A stretch of DNA of 64,000 nucleotides, from positions 1 to 64,000 of the forward strand of contig JACAEN010000011.1 in NCBI GenBank assembly GCA_013388845.1, given 5' to 3'. The notes under the pieces were generated by a model. It was not told the origin of the DNA, searched no databases, and saw only the letters and a list, made by a program, of their open reading frames with translations. A program made the position numbers and the translations under genes. The DNA is from Chloroflexota bacterium. Its GTDB lineage: Bacteria; Chloroflexota; Dehalococcoidia; GIF9; AB-539-J10. Positions 4,996-14,566 of the stretch are shown here, piece after piece; the first letter of the stretch is position 1, and the number at the start of each line of letters is the position of its first letter.

Positions 4996-5733
4996 ATGGC
5001 ATTCTGGGAAATATATTCATATTTTTATAGTTTATGCCTAAGAAACTGGTTCCCTTACAGGCGGCTTTTAGAAGACTTAAATGATGCCTTGGAAATCAAA
5101 GAAGGGGAGGCTATTTTGGATGCCGGTTGTGGCCCTGGACTTGTAATAGAAGAAGTTGTTAAAGAAAATAAGGGAAAAAGAATAAGCGTTATAGGTCTAG
5201 AACTCAGTAAGGGAATGATAAAGCACGCTCGCAAGAGATGCAAAGATTTTTCTAATGTAATGCTTCAAATCGCGGATTTGAATAAGAACTTAGAGTTTCC
5301 TGATAGCTCTTTTGATAAAGTGGTTTGCTCTAATACGCTTTATGCTTTAGAAAATCCGCGAAGAGTCATTTCTGAATTTTACAGAGTTTTAAAGCCGGGG
5401 GCAGCGGTTGTTATTGCCAATCCCAAACCGAACGCCGAAATAAAAGAACTTATAAGAGAGCACCTAAAAACACTTAAAAAACTTACACCTTTTTACAGGA
5501 AAATTTATCATATTTGCATATTCGTTTTGCTGCTTCCTGCAAACTTTATTGTTGTTACAATAAACAAAGTTATTATTAGGAAAGGGAAAAGCGGAGAATA
5601 TTACTTTCTAGACAAAGAAGACTTTCAAAAAATTCTTCAAGAGGTCAGTTTTAAAAAGATTAACATAAGTTCCTGCTATGCTGATCAAAACTGGTTGGTG
5701 AGGGCGGAAAAAATAAAAATACGGGTAAAATAG
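4996..5733 (+). CDS. class I SAM-dependent methyltransferase (UbiE-like)
   Basis: ILDAGCGPGLVIEEV motif I; FPDSSFDKVVCSNTLYALENP; VLKPGAAVVIANP. Confidence 0.85.
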   Translation: MAFWEIYSYFYSLCLRNWFPYRRLLEDLNDALEIKEGEAILDAGCGPGLVIEEVVKENKGKRISVIGLELSKGMIKHARKRCKDFSNVMLQIADLNKNLEFPDSSFDKVVCSNTLYALENPRRVISEFYRVLKPGAAVVIANPKPNAEIKELIREHLKTLKKLTPFYRKIYHICIFVLLLPANFIVVTINKVIIRKGKSGEYYFLDKEDFQKILQEVSFKKINISSCYADQNWLVRAEKIKIRVK

Positions 5734-5747
5734 GCGAATTAGTAAAC

Positions 5748-5798
5748 GTAGCTGCCGGTCTTTAGACCCGCAGGGCGAAGCTAAAGCATCGCCCCTAC
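5748..5798. repeat. 51-bp dispersed repeat, copy 2
   Basis: Direct copy of 4890-4940 with two substitutions; carries the stop codon of the minus-strand methyltransferase. Confidence 0.9.
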
Positions 5799-6512
5799 GA
5801 AAAATTCTGGGATATCGAGTTTTTGTAGGGCTGAAGCGTTACATCGCTGGTACTGGGGGTTGCTCTGTTTCTTTACCAGAATGCATATGTTGCGTGAGAA
5901 ATTCTTTATCGGGAAATGATAGGACTTCTCCGGTGACATAATAATGATTTCCCAGCCAGTTTCGACTAATAGCTTTCTTAGCTCGCCATAGGAGAAAAGG
6001 TGATAGTAGCGGTAAACTGTTTTTTCTTTTAGCCTCCAGGGGACCTGTTGCTCTTTGGATTTGAACCAGAACCTTAGTTGTCCGTGGTTCCACACGGTTA
6101 GAAAAGCCTCGCCCTGGGGCTTTAATACGCGTTTTAATTCTGCGAATGCTTTTTCTCTCTCCTCTCTGCCTTTGATGTGGTGATAAGTGGCTACTGATAT
6201 TGCCCAATCGAAGGTATTATCGGGGAAGGGCAGGAACAGGGCATCAGCCGCTATCAGGTTGACATAAAGCTTAAACTTAGCAGAATATCTCAGGGCTTGT
6301 CTGAGCATGGCTGGAGAGGAATCTACACCCCAGAGTTCAAAGCCCTGTCTGAAAGGCAAGAAGTCCGGTCCGTGAGCACAACCCACGTTTAGCAGCTTTC
6401 CGTTTTGCCATCTTGCCGCCAGCTCTTGTAGCTCTTCTTCTAATAAAGGCCAATGCCTCACTCGATACCAGCTTTCCGCTATTTGGTCGAAAACTTCTCT
6501 ATTTGTGGTCAT
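5781..6512 (-). CDS. Trm9/ABH8-like class I methyltransferase (candidate tRNA wobble-uridine carboxymethyl methyltransferase)
   Basis: LLNVGCAHGPDF; LFLPFPDNTFDWAISVATYHHIKGREEREKAFAELKRVLKPQGEAFLTVW; VPWR...YRYYHLFSYGELRKLLVETGW resembles the Trm9 C-terminal region. Confidence 0.65.
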   Translation of the reverse strand: MTTNREVFDQIAESWYRVRHWPLLEEELQELAARWQNGKLLNVGCAHGPDFLPFRQGFELWGVDSSPAMLRQALRYSAKFKLYVNLIAADALFLPFPDNTFDWAISVATYHHIKGREEREKAFAELKRVLKPQGEAFLTVWNHGQLRFWFKSKEQQVPWRLKEKTVYRYYHLFSYGELRKLLVETGWEIIIMSPEKSYHFPIKNFSRNICILVKKQSNPQYQRCNASALQKLDIPEFFVGAML

Positions 6513-6576
6513 AGATACACTCTGCTAAACTTTAGCATATTATGATGAAATGCTCATGGTTGGCAGTCTCGTGTTG

Positions 6577-6679
6577 TCATTCTGAGGGAGCCCCGATGAA
6601 ATCGGGGCGACCGAAGAATCTCTTCTATGAAGGTGAAAGATGAGATTCTTCGCCCCGACAAGTTGGGGGTCAGAATGAT
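6577..6679. repeat. palindromic intergenic repeat (TCATTCTGA...TCAGAATGA family)
   Basis: Perfect 9-bp terminal inversion TCATTCTGA/TCAGAATGA; inner GAAGAATCTC/GAGATTCTTC; GCCCCGATgaaATCGGGGC hairpin. Confidence 0.85.
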
Positions 6680-6690
6680 ATGGATATGGT

Positions 6691-8037
6691 ATGAAGAAAG
6701 CGTCTCGAACTATTTCTGGGGTAACCCCGGTGGCGGTTATGGCTAAGCCATTTCCTTGCCCCGGCAAATGTGTTTATTGCCCCAGTTCTCCTGAAGCCCC
6801 CAAGAGCTATACAGTGGAGTCTCCAGCAGTACTCCGAGCCCGAAGCTGTGGCTTTGATGTCAAGAAACAGGTGGAGGTCAGGCTCAAGACACTGGCTGAA
6901 ATGGGACACGCCCAGGATAAGGTAGAGCTTATCATCATGGGGGGTACCTTTCTGTCTTATCCTCGGGACTATCAGTATCAATTTGTTAAAGATTGCTATG
7001 ATGCTCTGAACGGCATCCCCTCCGGCAGTTTGGAAGAAGCCAGAAAACTAAATGAAAACGCCGAGCATCGCTGTGTGGGATTGTGCATCGAGACCAGACC
7101 TGACTTCTGCGGAGAGGACGAGGTAAAGAGGATGCTCGATTTTGGCACCACGAGGGTGGAGCTTGGAGTACAGACCTTGGACGATGAGATTCACTATCTG
7201 ACAAAGAGGGGACATGGGGTAGCTGAAGTTATCTCCGCAACCAGGCTATTACGGGATTATGGCTTTAAGGTCTATTATCATTGGATGCCTGGTTTACCCG
7301 GGTCAACGCCTGAGCATGACTTGGAGCTGTCGCGGCAATTATTTGAAGACGAGCGTTTTCGACCTGATGGGCTCAAGCTTTATCCAACGCTGGTAGTTCG
7401 GGGGAGCGAGCTGGAGAGCTGGTATCGGGATAATCGCTACCAGCCTTATGCTGATGAGGAGATGATTGACTTGCTCATAGCTATTAAAGCTCTGATTCCC
7501 AAGTATGTGAGGATTTCGAGGTTGATGCGGGATATTCCCAGCAAATTTATCATTGCTGGCAGCAGAGACTTAGCGCTAAGAGGAACTATTAAAAAAAGGA
7601 TGGAGCAAGCAGGTCTTCGCTGTAGCTGCATTCGTTGTCGGGAATATGGGCATCGCCTCAGGGATGGCTGGGCAATTGGCAAGCCCCGGTTAGTCAGGAT
7701 GGATTATGAGACTCTGGGGGGGAGGGAGGTCTTCCTTTCTTACGAGGATGAGCATGAAACCTTGTTTGGCTTGCTGAGGTTGAGAATAAATGAGAGAAAG
7801 GCGGTAGTTAGGGAGCTACATGTTTTTGGTCCGGAAGTTCCTTTGGGGGTAAGGCTAGAGAGGGCTGCTCAGCATCGTGGTCTCGGTGAAAAGTTGCTTC
7901 AGGAAGCAGGGAGAATTGCCAGAGAAGAATTTAAGGCTGATAGACTATCGGTGCTTAGTGGTGTTGGTGCCCGGGAGTATTACCGCTCGCTTGGTTATGG
8001 TCTGGAAGGCGCTTATATGGTCAGGGAGTTTAGTTAA
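6691..8037 (+). CDS. elp3: Elp3-family tRNA uridine(34) acetyltransferase/radical SAM protein
   Basis: RTISGVTPVAVMAKPFPCPGKCVYCPSSPEAPKSYTVESPAVLRA; C-terminal GNAT LGEKLLQEAGRIA...GAREYYRSLGYGLEGAYM. Confidence 0.95.
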   Translation: MKKASRTISGVTPVAVMAKPFPCPGKCVYCPSSPEAPKSYTVESPAVLRARSCGFDVKKQVEVRLKTLAEMGHAQDKVELIIMGGTFLSYPRDYQYQFVKDCYDALNGIPSGSLEEARKLNENAEHRCVGLCIETRPDFCGEDEVKRMLDFGTTRVELGVQTLDDEIHYLTKRGHGVAEVISATRLLRDYGFKVYYHWMPGLPGSTPEHDLELSRQLFEDERFRPDGLKLYPTLVVRGSELESWYRDNRYQPYADEEMIDLLIAIKALIPKYVRISRLMRDIPSKFIIAGSRDLALRGTIKKRMEQAGLRCSCIRCREYGHRLRDGWAIGKPRLVRMDYETLGGREVFLSYEDEHETLFGLLRLRINERKAVVRELHVFGPEVPLGVRLERAAQHRGLGEKLLQEAGRIAREEFKADRLSVLSGVGAREYYRSLGYGLEGAYMVREFS

Positions 8038-12761: not shown

Positions 12762-13628
12762 ATGCCAAATCGTAGCGAAGTGTCTCCAGGAAGCGCCTCT
12801 CCGGGTAATGGTTTCAACTTGTCCACAGCAGAGCTCAAGGAAATGGCTAAAAAGCTGCGCCGTCATGTAATCGCCATGACGGCTACGGCAGGCAGCGGGC
12901 ATCCCGGTGGCTCTCTCTCAGCAGCCGATATTATTACAGCACTTTATTTTAAGGTCTTGCGCCATGATCCTGAAAATCCCCAGTGGCCAGAGCGTGACCG
13001 ATTTATATTGAGCAAGGGACATGCCGCTCCAATTTTGTACGCTGCCCTAGCCGAAGCTGGCTACTTTCCCGTGGCAGAGTTGGCAACATTGAGAAAGTTA
13101 GATAGCCGCCTCCAGGGACACACTGACAAGAAGTTCACCCCCGGGGTGGAAATGTCCGCCGGTTCTTTAGGCATGGGGTTGTCCTTCGCTATCGGCGTTG
13201 CCCTAGCCGCCAGGCTAGATTCCAAGACTTATCGGACCTATGTTCTTCTTAGTGACGGGGAATGTGAGGAGGGGCAAACCTGGGAGGCAGCTCTTTCAGC
13301 GGCCCACTTCAAGCTAGATAACCTAACAGCTATAGTTGACTACAATGGTATGCAGCTCAGCGGATGGGTTCGGGACATCATGAACCTTGAGCCTTTTACT
13401 CGGAAGTGGCAAGCTTTTGGCTGGCATAGTCTTGATATAGACGGACATGACTTTAAGCAAATCTTGTCCGCTTGCCAAGGGGCTGAAAAGATAAAAGGCA
13501 AGCCCACTGTCATCGTCGCCCGCACCATTAAAGGCAGGGGGGTTAGCTTCATGGAAAACAATGTGGTGTTTCACGGCAAGGCACCTACCTGGGAAGAAGC
13601 CGAAAGGGCACTAAAGGAGTTAGAGTAG
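12762..13628 (+). CDS. transketolase N-terminal subunit (split transketolase)
   Basis: TATAGSGHPGGSLSAADI, DRFILSKGHAAPILYA, LLSDGECEEGQTWEAA. Confidence 0.93.
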   Translation: MPNRSEVSPGSASPGNGFNLSTAELKEMAKKLRRHVIAMTATAGSGHPGGSLSAADIITALYFKVLRHDPENPQWPERDRFILSKGHAAPILYAALAEAGYFPVAELATLRKLDSRLQGHTDKKFTPGVEMSAGSLGMGLSFAIGVALAARLDSKTYRTYVLLSDGECEEGQTWEAALSAAHFKLDNLTAIVDYNGMQLSGWVRDIMNLEPFTRKWQAFGWHSLDIDGHDFKQILSACQGAEKIKGKPTVIVARTIKGRGVSFMENNVVFHGKAPTWEEAERALKELE

Positions 13629-13630
13629 GT

Positions 13631-14566
13631 ATGGCGGAAGCGTCTACTCGGGAAACTTACGGCAAAACTTTAGTAGAACTGGGCAGGCAAAATAAAGACA
13701 TTGTTGTTCTGGACGCCGATTTATCGCCCTCCACAATGACCAGTATTTTCGCCCGGGAGTTTCCTGACCGCTTTTTTAACTGCGGCCTAACGGAACAAAA
13801 CATGGTTGGCGTAGCTGCTGGCCTAGCAGCTTCAGGTAAAACTGTCTTTGTCAGCACTTTCGTCGTTTTTGTCGTCTGTCGCTGTTTTGACCAGCTAAGG
13901 CTATGCATTTCCCAGCCAGAACTAAACGTAAAAATCGTCGCCACTCATGGTGGCATCACTGTTGGTGAAGACGGTAGCTCCCATCACGCCATTGAGGACT
14001 TGGCGTTGACTTGTGCTCTCCCGAGCTTCACCGTAGTCGTCCCCGCCGATGCCATAGAGACTGCTGAAGCAGTAAAAGCGGCAGCAAGTAACTATGGACC
14101 GTTCTACATCAGGCTAAGCCGTCCTAAGACACCGATTGTTTACCCCGAAGGCTATCACTTCACATTAGGCAAAGCAGTAACCGTGAGACAGGGCAAGGAT
14201 GCCACTGTTATAGCCATAGGCATCATGGTCGCTAAGGCTCTGGAGGCAGCAGATGTCTTAGCTAGAGAAGGTATAGATTGCCGGGTAATCAACATGCCTA
14301 CTCTCAAACCTTTGGATGAAGCAGCCATAGTCAAAGCGGCCTCAGAGACGGGCGCAATTGTCGTCGCTGAAGAGCACTTAGCCCAGGGTGGTCTGGGCAG
14401 CCGAGTTGCTCAGGTGGTCACCAGAAGGAAGCCAGTGCCTATGGAATTCGTCAACCTTGGTGACAGGTATGCTGTATCAGGCAAAGCTGAAGAGCTGCTT
14501 CAAAGATACGGATTGACCGCTGGAGACATTGCAGAGTCAGTGAAATCAGTGGTCAAGAGAAAGTAG
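13631..14566 (+). CDS. transketolase C-terminal subunit
   Basis: VVLDADLSPST, FNCGLTEQNMVGVAAGLA, THGGITVGEDGSSHHAIEDLAL; begins 3 nt after the N-terminal subunit stop. Confidence 0.93.
   Translation: MAEASTRETYGKTLVELGRQNKDIVVLDADLSPSTMTSIFAREFPDRFFNCGLTEQNMVGVAAGLAASGKTVFVSTFVVFVVCRCFDQLRLCISQPELNVKIVATHGGITVGEDGSSHHAIEDLALTCALPSFTVVVPADAIETAEAVKAAASNYGPFYIRLSRPKTPIVYPEGYHFTLGKAVTVRQGKDATVIAIGIMVAKALEAADVLAREGIDCRVINMPTLKPLDEAAIVKAASETGAIVVAEEHLAQGGLGSRVAQVVTRRKPVPMEFVNLGDRYAVSGKAEELLQRYGLTAGDIAESVKSVVKRK

Follow-up and report, generated by a model that had tools for sequence, protein, structure and literature searches.

A divergent Elp3/Trm9-like methyltransferase gene pair in Dehalococcoidia: a candidate for a bacterial mcm5U34 pathway

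Background

Could a bacterium complete the mcm5U modification of the tRNA wobble uridine with a compact set of two enzymes? The question is raised by a locus from a Dehalococcoidia genome of the phylum Chloroflexota, in which the gene for Elp3 lies head to head with that of a methyltransferase resembling Trm9. To our knowledge, the methylation step converting cm5U to mcm5U has not yet been shown in any bacterium; the Elp3 of Dehalococcoides has reportedly been both crystallised and assayed. Signature lists assign mcm5U to eukaryotes, and in archaea its occurrence has been proposed for some cases and documented for others (PMC2584109, PMC7663514). Of the Elongator subunits only Elp3 is found in prokaryotes, Elp1, Elp2 and Elp4-6 not being known there (PMC13315578, PMC7663514), and a review of the Trm112-dependent methyltransferases describes bacterial homologs of these enzymes, Trm9 included, as undetectable (PMC5372719). 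Direct evidence of xcm5U34 derivatives is lacking in Dehalococcoides, as these bacteria are hard to grow (PMC7663514). A search of mostly openly accessible literature recovered no earlier description of a bacterial Elp3/Trm9-like pair. Here we put this pair forward as a well-supported candidate for an mcm5U pathway in bacteria, the reaction of which we infer from the identity, linkage and conservation of its genes.

Results and discussion

The divergent gene pair and its surroundings

The window analysed is a stretch of 64,000 nucleotides of contig JACAEN010000011.1 (assembly GCA_013388845.1). Both ORFs of the pair are intact, with a gap of 178 nt between them (Table 1); they are divergently oriented, as the initial annotation had claimed, and the methyltransferase motifs that it quoted are present in the protein, HH as residues 111-112 and VPWR...YRYYHLF as residues 157-173. 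Its naming of the second gene as Elp3 is equally sound: the product scores 574.9 bits against TIGR01211 (cut-off 350), contains the domains PF04055, PF16199 and PF00583 (radical SAM and GNAT), and matches the Dehalococcoides mccartyi Elp3 structure 5l7j with an E-value of 2e-188 and 61% identity.

The divergent promoter region also harbors a palindromic MITE-like element with the ends CATTCTGA...TCAGAATG, of which no second full copy was found within the window. At its C-terminus, the methyltransferase of the window runs ~25 residues past the core that can be aligned in most orthologs (~216 aa), and its last ~25 codons fall in a repeat-like sequence, GGGCGAAGC...GCATCGCCC. Because of this combination of repeat-like sequence and extension past the core, the tail has probably been acquired. 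A UbiE-like class I methyltransferase, which is not Trm9-like and lies outside the conserved pair, is encoded next to the Trm9-like gene, and at least one close relative, L037, has a homolog in that position. Elsewhere in the window, transketolase is encoded as two adjacent subunit ORFs of 288 and 311 aa.

Table 1. Features of the locus and of related loci. Unprefixed coordinates refer to the window; residue numbers are those of the encoded proteins (Sc, yeast).
Feature	Coordinates	Strand	Evidence and remarks
Group A Trm9-like SAM-dependent methyltransferase	5781..6512	-	243 aa; ORF, Pfam Methyltransf_11, PDB top match 5cm2_Z, Foldseek rank 1
Elp3, radical SAM/GNAT tRNA U34 carboxymethyl enzyme	6691..8037	+	448 aa; TIGR01211, PDB 5l7j
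Divergent intergenic region, 178 nt	6513..6690	.	imperfect inverted repeat at 6612-6652
MITE-like element	6576-6679		inverted repeat arms 6612-6626 and 6638-6652
CPGKCVYC radical-SAM cysteine motif	6757..6780	+	C23, C27, C30 (CxxxCxxC); sequence
R19, candidate counterpart of Sc Trm9 R29	6456..6458	-	alignment shifted two residues; R in 45/46 homologs
H111, counterpart of Sc Trm9 H115	6180..6182	-	invariant, 46/46
Lid hairpin VPWRLKEKTVYRYYH	6000..6044	-	R168 (46/46) and Y170 (45/46), counterparts of Sc R241 and Y243
N208, likely counterpart of Sc Trm9 N271	5889..5891	-	start of last predicted strand; invariant, 46/46
Repeat-like sequence, last ~25 methyltransferase codons	5781-5860		
UbiE-like class I methyltransferase	4996-5733	+	
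Transketolase, two subunit ORFs	12762-14566	+	
Group B examples	L112:6183-6941; L114:4265-5053; L116:3790-4518	+; -; -	others, 36 genomes
Zinc ribbon loci	L111:4799-5026; L121:4780-5028	-; -	also L160-L165, L167, L169, L171, L173, L174, L166

Relationship of the methyltransferase to Trm9

A search of the PDB with the single sequence of the window methyltransferase recovered Yarrowia Trm9 (5cm2_Z) as the top match (E 9.5e-16). A profile of 13 members of its family, termed group A here, likewise placed 5cm2 first (6e-20), and the alignment with this structure extends across the VPW...YRYYHL(F/Y) lid. Modelled with AlphaFold (pLDDT 77), the protein adopts the class I SAM methyltransferase fold and has a two-stranded lid (strands 154-161 and 164-171), and a Foldseek search with this model ranked 5cm2_Z first among 350,542 chains (8.5e-15, rmsd 2.7), with other class I enzymes close behind in E-value. 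When the search was reversed and a 182-residue fragment of Trm9 served as the query, the gene beside Elp3 came out first in 20 out of 20 group-A genomes, with E-values of 1e-10 to 3e-18, the next-best gene in any of them reaching ~5e-7. Because Trm9 is the top match by sequence, profile and fold, and the gene comes first in the reverse search, the enzyme is, as far as sequence comparison and a predicted structure can tell, Trm9-like rather than merely generic. The resemblance to Trm9 proposed in the initial annotation thus goes beyond the common methyltransferase fold. Pfam, NCBIfam and plasmid searches returned generic class I methyltransferase families only, and no NCBIfam or Pfam family scored above an equivalog cut-off.

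With the Dehalococcoides methyltransferase as a lone query, Trm9 comes no higher than 8th among the PDB matches, and pairwise hhalign scores against Trm9 alone are non-diagnostic inside the class I superfamily. We also built a maximum-likelihood tree, in which 21 other class I enzymes were included and Trm9 was represented by a single, long-branch reference. In this tree Trm9 joins neither group A nor the second group described below (group B); with this one reference, a clade of Trm9 and group A comes at a cost of 5.7 log units, and the AU test does not reject it (p-AU 0.243). As Trm9 is not firmly placed, we draw no support from the tree.

In yeast Trm9, tRNA affinity and activity are lost in the variants R29A, H115A, R241A, Y243A and N271A (PMC5372719). 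Across 46 homologs, the H, the R and the N corresponding to these residues are invariant, the Y is retained in 45, and the fifth, an Arg, is found only at a shifted position: R17, which aligns with yeast R29, is variable (R in 28 of 46), and the Arg is kept two residues on, at R19. We take H111 and N208 to be the likely equivalents of H115 and N271, a mapping made partly via spacing and the yeast Trm9 sequence.

Conservation of the pair and a second methyltransferase group

Two sets of genomes were surveyed, namely 60 relatives and 400 genomes sampled evenly from the Chloroflexota, each of these 400 at least 85% complete. The methyltransferase and Elp3 are both present in 49 of the relatives, both missing from 8, and only one of them is present in 3; where both occur the arrangement is divergent in 48 of 49 genomes, with a spacing of 25-337 nt and one exception of 1237 nt. 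Group A, called at E < 1e-80 in the phylum-wide sample, was detected in 28 genomes belonging to 11 families, all of them Dehalococcoidia and all with Elp3, and in every one of these (28/28) the two genes are head to head, 20-290 nt apart. The genes around the pair differ between families. The initial annotation had named a lack of co-conservation with elp3 as a refuting condition; the divergent pair is clearly co-conserved across the class.

Outside Dehalococcoidia, the Elp3 proteins of Chloroflexota are longer (~540-630 aa). A distant methyltransferase of ~245 aa, group B, is positioned divergently beside Elp3 in 36 of 44 genomes inspected, sometimes with one gene in between. The group B profile also places Trm9 (5cm2) first in the PDB (8e-13), by a narrow margin, and the reverse search with the Trm9 fragment favors the group B gene in only part of the genomes. 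Group B keeps the N-terminal TR motif exactly, along with the HH and an RY lid. In the maximum-likelihood tree, each of the two groups is monophyletic.

Wobble-uridine enzymes in the same genomes

Neither MnmG nor MnmE scored above its cut-off in any of the 60 relatives (0/60 for each), the matches to MnmE consisting of the isolated G-domain only. Among the 400 Chloroflexota genomes, Elp3 is present in 73 and MnmG (called at E <= 1e-30) in 140, and the two never overlap (Fisher 4e-16, uncorrected for phylogeny). Neither Elp3 nor MnmG rose above threshold in 187 of the 400 genomes, and therefore exclusion from MnmG by itself proves little. MnmA, the U34 2-thiolase, is above cut-off in 44 of the 60 relatives.

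Potential partner proteins

The initial annotation had recognised no Trm112-like protein. This stands for the window but not for the genome, another contig of which encodes a 60-aa protein of the Trm112 family. Standalone Trm112 was detected in 14 of the 28 group-A genomes and went undetected in the other 14, including complete Dehalococcoides and Dehalogenimonas-like genomes. We reject Trm112 as a constant companion of the methyltransferase: no standalone copy was detected in complete Dehalococcoides genomes, and genomes with MnmG and without Elp3 do possess one. With Trm112 encoded in the genome of the window itself and undetected in complete Dehalococcoides genomes, it is a candidate partner only.

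A zinc ribbon of 72-76 aa (CPxC-x18/19-CWKC) adjoins the methyltransferase gene, in the same orientation, in exactly the 14 group-A genomes lacking standalone Trm112 (in G140 it was read by eye inside a longer frame), and it is absent from this place in the 14 with Trm112. This 14/14 complementarity reflects no more than 2-3 independent events, about three changes on the Elp3 tree being enough to explain it, and for this reason the possible replacement of the Trm112 activator by the zinc ribbon is a lead, not a result. Its interpretation as a divergent Trm112 is unsupported, with no match to the Pfam Trm112 family, an hhalign probability of 56% and no significant Foldseek match.

A proposed pathway and its alternatives

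What, then, might the pair do? We consider it likely, with a probability of about two in three, that Elp3 and the Trm9-like enzyme constitute the core of a bacterial, Elongator-free pathway for the mcm5U34 wobble uridine. U34 would first be turned into cm5U34 by Elp3, which draws on SAM and acetyl-CoA, and the Trm9-like enzyme would then methylate the carboxylate with SAM as the donor, so that mcm5U34 results. In the tRNAs for Lys, Glu and Gln, 2-thiolation would probably fall to MnmA, encoded elsewhere. Such a pathway would stand in for MnmE/MnmG, which are absent from these genomes. The data establish what the genes are, how they are linked, that Elp3 and MnmG exclude each other, and which residues are conserved; from these we infer cm5U34 as the substrate and mcm5U34 as the product, as well as any partner, be it Trm112 or another protein. 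Anaerobic bacteria that lack MnmG and encode Elp3 beside a Trm9-like enzyme would probably finish their wobble modification in the eukaryotic way. A more encompassing version appears doubtful when taken as a whole, namely a two-enzyme pathway for mcm5U34/mcm5s2U34 that replaces MnmE/MnmG, is served by two distant Trm9-like groups within one phylum, and has a zinc ribbon substituting for Trm112 in Dehalococcoides.

One alternative, which we consider rather unlikely, has the methyltransferase modifying the Elp3 product at U34 but a mature nucleoside other than mcm5U, either because the ester is an intermediate on the way to ncm5U or because the methyl group goes elsewhere on the wobble base. The same linkage and exclusion of MnmG fit such an outcome, and the routes are connected in yeast, where ncm5U and ncm5s2U are reported to build up in a trm9 mutant (PMC3110198); however, sequence and fold both point to the carboxyl methyltransferase Trm9 as the nearest relative of the enzyme, and most of the functional residues of Trm9 are kept.

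Quite unlikely, too, is a function that has nothing to do with tRNA, with the methyltransferase being a small-molecule or general class I enzyme and its head-to-head placement a product of inherited synteny or shared regulation. The purely generic Pfam and NCBIfam assignments, none above an equivalog cut-off, and the insecure placement of Trm9 in the tree are consistent with this, but inherited synteny sits poorly with a pair that persists in 28 of 28 genomes from 11 families despite otherwise changing neighbors. Moreover, a different methyltransferase group occupies the same site beside Elp3 elsewhere in the phylum, and Trm9 is the top match by three methods. Finally, CmoM is the tRNA cmo5U carboxyl methyltransferase and likewise methylates a wobble-uridine carboxylate, but a CmoM-like role, with cmo5U34 or another tRNA carboxylate as the target in place of the Elp3 product, is very improbable given the linkage to Elp3, the absence of the CmoM structure 8joz from the group-A profile matches (E<=0.001), and its match to group B, which falls short of that of Trm9 by some six orders of magnitude.

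If the mcm5U34 pathway is the correct reading, the pair supplies the likely missing second enzyme. In the single-contig genome G075, where Elp3 is 100% identical to the crystallised protein 5l7j, the methyltransferase gene is just 58 nt from that of Elp3, and the question becomes testable with two small recombinant proteins.

Comparison with known systems

CmoM resembles the proposed enzyme in the SAM-dependent methyl esterification of a wobble-uridine carboxylate; it differs in not being close in sequence and in belonging to a separate precursor pathway. The MnmE/MnmG system (with MnmC) also places an xm5 group on U34 in the same class of tRNAs, but uses other enzymes and generates another side chain, the aminomethyl derivatives. 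With eukaryotic Trm9/ABH8 (and its partner Trm112) the bacterial methyltransferase shares the class I fold, the beta-hairpin lid with (Y)RYYH, the H/R/Y/N active-site residues and, under the proposed pathway, the functional coupling to Elp3; in contrast, its core is ~216 aa, identity is ~23-30%, the R29 equivalent is shifted, and Trm112 is undetected in half of the group-A genomes, whereas eukaryotic Trm9 needs Trm112. The archaeal systems of Haloferax and Sulfolobus, compared here by description, similarly combine Elp3 with a Trm9 homolog and dispense with the other Elongator subunits (PMC2584109, PMC5372719), and in Sulfolobus solfataricus the two genes are clustered (PMC2584109). The arrangement reported here differs from them in being bacterial, divergent and nearly invariant across an entire class.
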